A program made the translations under genes and the position numbers. The notes under the pieces were generated by a model. It saw nothing but the letters and a program-made list of their open reading frames with translations. It had not been told where the DNA came from and ran no database searches. This document shows, one piece after another, positions 9,945 to 13,321 of a DNA stretch of 64,000 bases. This stretch comes from Klebsiella pneumoniae (lineage in GTDB: Bacteria > Pseudomonadota > Gammaproteobacteria > Burkholderiales > UBA3065), in assembly GCA_945897555.1 (NCBI GenBank), contig CAMDGF010000002.1, positions 1-64,000 on the forward strand. Direction: 5' to 3'. Every line of letters starts with the position of its first letter. Position 1 is the stretch's first letter.

Positions 9945-10025
9945 ATGCACCCCCATCCGAAAAAGAAAACAGCTTTCCCCAATGCGCCGCTCGCAGAAGC
10001 CGCGCTCGAGGCCCAAAGATGCTGA
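9945..10025 (+). CDS. possible small upstream ORF overlapping the cysS start
   Basis: A 26-codon ORF beginning [11 protein letters not shown] and ending EAQRC, whose TGA overlaps the first codons of cysS. It lies in the cysS leader, downstream of a TATGCT box at 9863. It ends in a single cysteine codon. I do not recognise the peptide, and it could be chance; a leader-peptide or coupling role is speculative. Confidence 0.25.
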
Positions 10026-11386
10026 GCCTTTACAACAGCCTGACCCGCCAAAAAGAGACCTTTCAGCCGATCGTGCCGGGTGAGGTGCGCATGTACGTGT
10101 GCGGCATGACCGTCTATGACTTCTGCCATGTCGGCCATGCGCGGGTCATGGTGGTCTTCGACGTCGTGGTGAGATGGTTGCGCGAAGGCGGCATGAAAGT
10201 GACTTATGTGCGCAATATCACCGATATTGACGACAAGATCATCAAGCGCGCCGCAGACAACGGCGAGCGCATCGGCGATCTGACCGGCCGCTTCATCGCC
10301 GCCATGAACGAGGACGCCGACGCGCTCGGCGTGACTCGCCCCGACTTTGAACCCAAGGCCACCGAGTACGTGGCACAGATGCTCGACATGATCCGCACCC
10401 TGGAGACGCGTGGCTTGGCCTACGCGGCGCCGAATGGCGACGTGTACTACCGGGTGCGCGGCTTTGCTGGCTACGGCAAGCTGAGCGGCAAAGACCCTGA
10501 CGACCTGCGCGCTGGCGAACGCGTGCAGGTGGGTGAGGCCAAAGAGGACCCGCTCGACTTCGTGCTGTGGAAGGCGGCCAAGCCTGGCGAGCCCAGCTGG
10601 GCGAGCCCATGGGGCGCCGGGCGCCCGGGCTGGCACATCGAATGTTCGGCCATGGCTGGCGCATTGTTGGGGCGCCAGTTCGACATCCACGGGGGTGGCC
10701 AGGATCTGCAGTTCCCGCACCACGAGAACGAGATCGCCCAGAGTGAGGGCGCGCATCAGTGCACCTTTGCCAACTACTGGATGCACAACGGTTTTGTGCG
10801 CGTCGACGACGAGAAGATGTCGAAGTCGCTCGGCAATTTCTTTACCGTGCGCGAGGTGCTGGCCAAGTACGCTCCCGAGGTGGTGCGCTTCTTCATCCTG
10901 CGTGCGCACTACCGCAGCCCGCTCAACTATTCCGACGCGCACCTCGACGACGCCCGCCGTGCGCTCGACTCGCTCTACATCACGCTGCGTGATGTGCCGC
11001 CGGCGGCCACGGCGATCGACTGGGCCGAGCTGCGTGCGGCGCGTTTTGCCGCGGCGATGGACGACGACTTCAACACGCCCGAGGCCTTGGCGGTGTTGTT
11101 CGAGCTCTCGACCGAGGCCAACCGCAGTAAATCGGCCGAGGCGAGCGGGCTGTTGCATGCACTCGGCGGGGTGTTGGGCCTGTTGCAGGCCGACCCTTCC
11201 GCCTATCTGCGCGGCCCAGCCGCCGCCGATGGCTTGAGCGATGCCGAGATCGACGCGCTGGTGGCCGAGCGCCGCGCTGCGAGGGCGTCCCGCGACTTCG
11301 CCCGTTCCGATGCCATCCGCGACCAATTGGCGGCCGCTGGGGTCACTCTGGAAGACACGCCGCAGGGTACGCTCTGGCGGCGCTGA
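10019..11386 (+). CDS. cysS: cysteinyl-tRNA synthetase
   Basis: Charges tRNA-Cys. The 455-residue class Ia synthetase has the HIGH motif as HVGHAR, the KMSKS motif as KMSKS (in [11 protein letters not shown]), and zinc ligands in CGMTVYD and WHIECSAM with [10 protein letters not shown]. The start is the ATG at 10019, on the strand opposite the cyclophilin genes. A strong hairpin terminator follows 34 bases after the stop. Confidence 0.97.
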
Positions 11387-11420
11387 AGGCCGCGCTGCGT
11401 CTCCGTGGTCTGTGGACAAC

Positions 11421-11449
11421 AAAAAAGCCACCCGTGGGTGGCTTTTTTG
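11421..11449. terminator. bidirectional Rho-independent terminator between cysS and pqqA
   Basis: AAAAAAGCCACCC and GGGTGGCTTTTTT form a perfect stem with A and T runs on both sides, so it can stop cysS transcripts on the plus strand and pqqA transcripts on the minus strand. Confidence 0.9.
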
Positions 11450-11466
11450 CAGACAACGCGGCTCGC

Positions 11467-11538
11467 TTAGCGGGCGGCGATGTACATGGTGACTTCGAAA
11501 CCGAAACGCAGGTCAGAGGCAGCGGGCTTGGTCCACAT
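11467..11538 (-). CDS. pqqA: orphan PQQ precursor peptide PqqA
   Basis: A 23-residue peptide that begins MWTKPA and contains FEVTMY. This is the conserved PqqA pattern in which the Glu (15) and Tyr (19) spaced E-x3-Y are cross-linked to form pyrroloquinoline quinone. An AAGGAG ribosome-binding site lies about 7 bases before the ATG, and a terminator starts 17 bases after the stop, so it looks like an independent monocistronic gene. No pqqB, C, D or E is in the window. No convincing promoter was found upstream, and the stretch 11539-11729 holds nothing else I recognise. Confidence 0.88.
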   Translation of the reverse strand: MWTKPAASDLRFGFEVTMYIAAR

Positions 11539-11729
11539 GGTGATGCTCCTTGTTGGTTGACTGGGCAGCGCGGTGCGTTGCTGTGGGTGGAGTATCAGCG
11601 CTGGCCCCTCCGGATGCTTGCGCAGGCTGCTTGAACTAGCCTCATGAAAATACGTAGTCGCACCTTCGGCCTCCGCCGACCCGGCTCGGCGACAAGGCCC
11701 CGGAATCAGACGCTCGCGCCGCTCCGCCG

Positions 11730-11779: not shown

Positions 11780-13321
11780 ATGACCGACACCAACCCGTCT
11801 GCCAACGGACCCGAAGCCGGCGAAGCCCCGGTCGACGAATCCCACATCATCGCCGAGCGGCGCGCCAAGCTGGCCCGTCTGCGTGAGGCCGGCCCGGCCT
11901 TCCCCAACGACTTCCGCCCACAGCATCAAGCCGCTGTGCTGCATGCCGCGCACGGCCACACCAGTGCCGAGGAGCTCGAAGCTACGCCGGTGCCAGCCTG
12001 CATCGCCGGCCGCATGATGCTCAAGCGCGTGATGGGCAAGGCCGCCTTCGGCACCCTGCAAGACAGCAGCGGCCGCATGCAGATCTACGTGCAATTGGAT
12101 GCCGTTGGCACCGACGCGCTGGAGGCCTTCAAGCACTGGGACCTGGGCGACATCCTCGGCGTCGAGGGCACGCTGATGAAGACCCGCACCGGCGAGCTCA
12201 CCGTGAAGGCCACCACCATCCGCCTGCTGACCAAGAGCCTGCGCCCCCTGCCGGACAAGTTCCACGGCCTGGCCGATCAGGAGATGAAGTACCGGCAACG
12301 CTATGTCGACCTCATCGTCTCGGAAGACACGCGCCGGACCTTCCTAGCGCGCAGCAAGATGATGTCGGCGATCCGCAACCAGATGGTCGAAGCCGGCTTT
12401 CTCGAGGTGGAGACGCCGATGCTGCACCCGATCCCGGGCGGCGCCGCGGCCAAGCCCTTCATCACCCACCACAACGCGCTCGACCAGGAGATGTTCCTGC
12501 GCATCGCGCCGGAGCTTTATCTGAAGCGGCTGGTGGTGGGCGGATTCGAGCGCGTGTTCGAGGTCAACCGCAACTTCCGCAACGAGGGCCTGAGCCCGCG
12601 CCACAACCCCGAATTCACCATGATGGAGTTCTACGCGGCCTACACCGACTACGTGTGGCTGATGGACTTTACCGAGGCGCTGATCCGCCGCGCGGCTGTG
12701 GAGGCGACCGGCAGCGCGCTGCTGCAGTACCAGGGCCGCGAGCTGGACATGTCGCAGCCGTTTGCGCGGCTGACCATCGTGCAGGCGATCAAGGCGCACG
12801 CGCCGCACTACACCGACGCGCAACTGGCTGATGCGGCCTTCCTGCGCAGCGAGCTCAAGCGGCTGGGCGCGCACGTCGAGGGCCCGCAGCTCAAGAACGC
12901 CGGCCTGGGTGCGCTGCAACTGGCGCTGTTCGAGGAGACCGCTGAGTCGCACCTGTGGGCGCCGACCTTCATCATCGATTACCCGGTCGAGGTGAGCCCG
13001 CTGGCGCGCGAATCGGACACGCGCCCCGGCATCACCGAGCGCTTCGAGCTGTTCATCGTCGGCCGCGAGATCGCCAACGGCTTTTCCGAGCTCAACGATG
13101 CCGAGGACCAGGCGGCACGCTTCCAGGCGCAAGTGGCGGCCAAGGATGCCGGTGACCACGAGGCGATGCACTTCGACGCCGACTACATCCGCGCGCTGGA
13201 ATATGGCCTGCCACCCACCGGCGGCTGCGGCATCGGCATCGACCGCCTGGCCATGCTGCTGACCGACAGCCCGGCCATCCGCGACGTCATCCTCTTCCCC
13301 GCGCTCAAGCGCGAGGGCTAG
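11780..13321 (+). CDS. lysS: lysyl-tRNA synthetase, class II
   Basis: Charges tRNA-Lys. The 513-residue protein has an OB-fold anticodon-binding domain (about residues 60-170) and a class II catalytic domain with motif 2 ([16 protein letters not shown]) and motif 3 ([12 protein letters not shown]). I chose the ATG at 11780 (MTDTNPS) over an upstream in-frame TTG at 11765. mnmC begins 3 bases after the stop, so two tRNA-related functions are joined. Confidence 0.96.

Follow-up and report, generated by a model that had tools for sequence, protein, structure and literature searches.

A solitary pqqA copy between cysS and lysS in a Burkholderiales genome, and a putative operator common to dispersed pqqA genes and the PQQ operon

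The window, which is the whole stretch of 64,000 nucleotides that was analysed, carries a pqqA gene on its minus strand at 11467-11538 including the stop codon (open reading frame 11470-11538, stop codon 11467-11469), the product of which is a 23-amino-acid PqqA precursor with the sequence MWTKPAASDLRFGFEVTMYIAAR. It is flanked by cysS (10019-11386) and lysS (11780-13321), both open reading frames on the plus strand, the former also recognized by its synteny with RFSW01000032 and the latter by a LysS protein that is 95% identical there. The initial annotation had named this gene from its PqqA pattern and had noted its placement between cysS and lysS, and the profile searches agreed: the peptide scored 41.3 bits against PF08042 (cut-off 21.1, E 1.4e-10) and 39.4 bits against NCBIfam TIGR02107 (cut-off 20), about twice the cut-off of both PqqA models, and a TIGR02107 search of 14 named control genomes returned zero matches. 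The Glu-x3-Tyr cross-link residues are present within FEVTMY of the translation, and the AAGGAG ribosome-binding site noted earlier was also seen, at 11546-11551 on the minus strand, about 8 nucleotides 5' of the ATG.

A stem-loop with T-runs on both strands (11418-11449) lies between cysS and pqqA and is a probable two-way terminator for the two genes. Its predicted folding energy was -21.8 kcal/mol (z -4.46) on the minus strand and -20.9 kcal/mol (z -3.08) on the plus strand, and because the fold is predicted to be stable on both strands, the earlier description of a bidirectional terminator is reasonable, with the stem-loop being absent from the listing of a simple terminator scan. Rfam matches, two of them at the terminator, were weak and below the gathering score and were taken as chance. 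A scan for a consensus sigma-70 promoter of the pqqA gene found none. The entire unit, from an upstream dyad to the terminator, spans 11417-11657 on the minus strand, and its part at 11417-11552 is approximately 93-95% identical to the pqqA copies found between pntB and typA in the genus. Judged by its sequence, this 23-codon gene is a genuine third pqqA copy of the genome.

The genome (1.81 Mb in 52 contigs, 98.5% complete, order Burkholderiales) contains pqqA in the window, at C37:7457 and at C1:33297. On contig C37, pqqA is followed by pqqB, pqqC, and pqqD and then by the beginning of pqqE, where the contig ends. PqqB, PqqC, and PqqD exceeded their curated cut-offs; pqqE is split by the contig break into parts scoring 203 bits (end of C37) and 290 bits (end of C10), each of which alone is under the cut-off and which jointly span nearly the whole profile. 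The initial annotation had placed the window gene away from any pqqBCDE genes, which holds for the cysS-lysS locus but not for the genome, where pqqABCD and the split pqqE lie elsewhere. The genome search it had suggested thus recovered both pqqB-E and further pqqA copies, so that pqqCDE is not missing from the genome, and its proposal of PQQ synthesis or a spare precursor gained support from pqqB, pqqC, pqqD and both parts of pqqE. The genome (G000) therefore combines three pqqA copies with one pqqC. The copy at C1:33297 is a second orphan, located between pntB and typA (gene names read from the translations), and a stem-loop of a like kind is also found 3' of it. In the operon copy, pqqA and pqqB are separated by a GC-rich stem-loop with a T-rich stretch after it (L037:7529-7590); this stem-loop could allow excess transcription of pqqA, and its fold was unexceptional relative to shuffled sequences (z -0.77).

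A user of the cofactor is also encoded, namely a quinoprotein dehydrogenase (TIGR03075, 788 bits) with the lanthanide-type sequence WDYDGVNE, whose neighbours are a PedF-type cytochrome, a SoxYZ-like carrier, and a quinoprotein relay hydrolase. Furthermore, C12 ends in a fragment that resembles the start of a second TIGR03075-type enzyme, and a terminal fragment of C30 may come from the opposite end of that enzyme. A scan of the dehydrogenase locus found no strong dyad 5' of the gene, and the dehydrogenase is therefore not claimed for the pqqA regulon.

Among the Burkholderiales, the nearest match in a LysS query was the MAG Betaproteobacteria bacterium WB4_1_1427, with 95% protein identity. 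The complete pqqA copies of the five congeneric genomes encode one peptide that varies only at position 8 (Ala/Ser). The pntB-typA copy is common to the genus: it is present in G001, G003, and G004, and is cut by a contig end in G002. The cysS-lysS copy was not found at its site in G001, G002, and G004. In G002, which is probably the MAG of RFSW01000032, the gap between cysS and lysS is approximately 113 bp, compared with 393 in the window, and has no pqqA; in G001 a different gene lies 3' of cysS. The gap of G004 (contig C95, L135) is occupied by another insertion, approximately 2.5 kb long and carrying other genes, so that this gap seems to accept insertions. For G003, which is only 79% complete, there was no match at the site. 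A search for the pqqA pattern around lysS in named relatives (80 loci) was negative, which says little about the site in other genera because the CysS of the window was found in just one of these loci. The window copy is probably recent, judging from this distribution. In addition, G002 and G004 have solitary pqqA copies at other sites; in two of these copies, a stretch of 244 bp running from dyad to terminator is 83% identical although the surroundings differ. Units of pqqA therefore come and go in the genus. As to how they may spread, the units end at dyad and terminator, but selection confined to these two parts would give an identical picture.

When 300 genomes of the order were searched, pqqA was found in 56 and pqqC in 55, with an overlap of 55 genomes where 10 would be expected by chance; the only genome with pqqA and without pqqC was the incomplete G004. 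The pqqC gene was always single, and pqqA was present in two to seven copies in 40 of the 56 genomes (one copy in 16 genomes, two in 20, three in 15, four in 2, six in 1, and seven in 2). Several copies fall at contig ends, and these counts are therefore minimal. Divergent PqqA variants ending in EVTAYVYVR, which had no close operator match, were seen at three loci (L205, L206, and L226) and are possibly a separate, transferred type of PqqA.

Gibbs sampling of the DNA 5' of the pqqA copies in the genus, with no prior pattern, yielded one 15-bp element approximately 100-140 bp before the ATG, with an information content of 18.75 bits as against approximately 12 in shuffled sequences. Four non-orthologous copies alone gave 14.6 bits (11.8 when shuffled, sd 0.4), and an unsupervised search of 22 pqqA copies of other families returned TCATGAAAATCATGA (19.6 versus 9.7). 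Across the order, the dyad TMATGAWWWTCATKA is found approximately 100-240 bp 5' of most pqqA copies, and in an initial set of 186 loci it occurred only in those around pqqA; the operon copy of the window genome matches it exactly. In 86 distinct pqqA copies, which include relatives and are thus not independent, the dyad was exact in 51 and had one mismatch in 9 (60/86), and none of 20,000 random 260-bp segments, taken from 954 kb of related DNA that was mostly GC-rich, contained it with up to one mismatch. Because the copies are related and the background is mostly GC-rich, a count within pqqA neighbourhoods is a fairer test: in 729 kb of such DNA, 32 of 35 exact matches lay within 300 bp 5' of a pqqA. 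One of the three remaining matches, in G289, precedes the pqqB of an operon that has no pqqA in front, and four genomes with separate pqqBCDE (G149, G209, G237, and G264) have a one-mismatch dyad approximately 85-100 bp before pqqB. Dyads ahead of both pqqA and pqqB operons lacking pqqA are the pattern expected from the operator of a PQQ regulon. In G149, a small-genome member, an exact operator TCATGATTATCATTA is also located approximately 140 bp 5' of a rhodopsin-like gene (L221:999-1013; C1:862998), and this match may be due to chance or mark an additional member of the regulon.

The dyad of the window copy itself, TCATGAAAATACGTA on the plus strand at 11642-11656, was located by Gibbs sampling 118 bp before the ATG. 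It consists of one perfect half-site and one diverged half-site, the latter containing all three mismatches, and so it lies outside the strict definition of the operator (up to one mismatch) at the right position (-118). The site resembles the operator, and strict membership is not claimed for it. Approximately 2% of random 260-bp segments reach a three-mismatch match, and the window site therefore rests on the pattern at the level of the genus. This pattern, TMMKKAWTTTMMKKA, has three exact matches in the genome, one ahead of each pqqA, which show exclusivity rather than independent discovery because the pattern was built partly from them. The TACGTA half of the window dyad recurs in the pntB-typA copy and in one copy of G289.

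A candidate for the protein that binds the dyad is encoded near the PQQ operon on C37 (L037:2097-4479), where a NarL-type response regulator is accompanied by a UhpB/NarX-like sensor kinase. This pair adjoins pqqA in seven other families, making eight in all, with regulators that are 65-73% identical. The regulator reached no cut-off of the curated models, the best being a GacA-type model (208.8 of 280 bits). The stretches examined beside pqqA in the six- and seven-copy families contained no close relative of this pair. It has been reported for Pseudomonas that AgmR, a LuxR/NarL-type regulator, controls PQQ synthesis (PMC12997753). The loci of the pair in other families often contain a second, divergent pqqA approximately 5 kb from the operon copy. 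Taking motif and position together, we lean, by a modest margin over even, towards an order-wide PQQ operator TMATGAWWWTCATKA that would be read by the pqq-linked NarL-type pair and would unite dispersed pqqA copies with pqqBCDE operons lacking pqqA, the copies spreading as small operator-bearing units and diverged half-sites tuning single copies.

The best explanation of the window gene is that it is probably a functional extra pqqA, which would raise the supply of precursor and be linked by its dyad to the regulator of the operon. PqqA acts as a substrate, one peptide being spent per molecule of PQQ, and PqqB-E as catalysts; since PqqA is consumed, extra free-standing pqqA units would raise the supply to the single pqqBCDE operon. 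Each unit is small, comprising a dyad on its 5' side, a ribosome-binding site, 23 codons, and a terminator. We infer that the window copy is transcribed and that its peptide would be processed in trans, with PqqD binding it, PqqE cross-linking the Glu-x3-Tyr residues, and a protease, PqqB, and PqqC trimming and finishing the product. The PQQ so formed would be used by the quinoprotein dehydrogenase cluster of the lanthanide type (WDYDGVNE). The dyad probably places the window copy under the regulator of the operon, most likely through binding of the NarL-type regulator of the regulator/sensor pair. An advantage of gene dosage would be consistent with Methylovorus, which has five copies and for which PqqA supply has been described as rate-determining in work cited in PMC11317620. 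In Hyphomicrobium, good expression has been reported for a pqqA copy that stands apart (PMC9851590).

Alternatively, the window gene could be a recently duplicated copy that is silent or redundant, genuine in sequence, expressed barely if at all, and without influence on how much PQQ is made. The failure to find pqqA between cysS and lysS in G001, G002, and G004 means that the copy may be young and redundant; the right half of its dyad has diverged, the promoter scan was negative, and the pqqADE operon of Hyphomicrobium is nearly silent (PMC9851590). However, the peptide is intact, the ribosome-binding site, the terminator, and the position of the dyad have been kept, and the diverged half-site is also found in the copy retained by the genus between pntB and typA, so we consider silence unlikely. 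A much smaller chance is given to an orphan PqqA that has a separate role, such as the handling of lanthanides or another modified peptide, instead of being a precursor of PQQ. An orphan PqqA in lanthanide uptake has been raised for M. extorquens (PMC11317620), and the present genome encodes a lanthanide-type dehydrogenase, but the window peptide differs from the PqqA of the operon only at position 8 (Ser/Ala) with the cross-link residues kept, and there is no other PqqE-like maturase at the cysS-lysS locus. Repeated short units break assemblies here, and several of the pqqA copies are located where contigs end, as would be expected if the window gene were an assembly artefact, or else a chance open reading frame. 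Nevertheless, the model scores are far over the cut-offs, the contig is continuous over 140 kb, and the unit is conserved at other sites in other genomes, which makes such an origin hardly credible.

The window gene itself belongs to a known kind, and the likeness to the dispersed pqqA of methylotrophs drawn in the initial annotation is apt (PMC4109929, PMC11317620). Methylophilaceae have 3-12 pqqA copies with a single pqqBCDE (PMC4109929), and Methylovorus sp. MP688 has five copies (Ge et al. 2015, as cited in PMC11317620); the two to seven copies found in the order fit these and the cases of M. extorquens and Hyphomicrobium (PMC4109929, PMC11317620, PMC9851590). As in Methylophilaceae and Methylovorus, near-identical pqqA copies are dispersed around one set of biosynthetic genes, whereas the window genome comes from a different genus and family within the order, the cysS-lysS site is specific to its species among those compared, and a shared operator is not described in PMC4109929 or PMC11317620. 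Similarly, pqqA2 and pqqA3 of Methylorubrum extorquens AM1 are solitary copies apart from the operon (PMC11317620). However, that organism is an alphaproteobacterium whose orphan copies respond unlike the main operon (PMC11317620), while the common dyad suggests shared control of the copies here. The candidate regulator recalls AgmR/ErbR of Pseudomonas, LuxR/NarL-type control over PQQ synthesis and quinoprotein genes (PMC12997753), although control in the present case is deduced from position and motif. The operator is the newer part of the finding, and among openly accessible papers a search by title and abstract for a pqqA dyad motif returned nothing relevant. An operator placed on both the pqqA copies and the enzyme operon would provide a testable answer to the question of why a 23-codon precursor gene is multiplied, namely precursor supply together with common control, and it names a regulator to be tested. 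The motif may also help in searching for short pqqA genes, which annotation can overlook.
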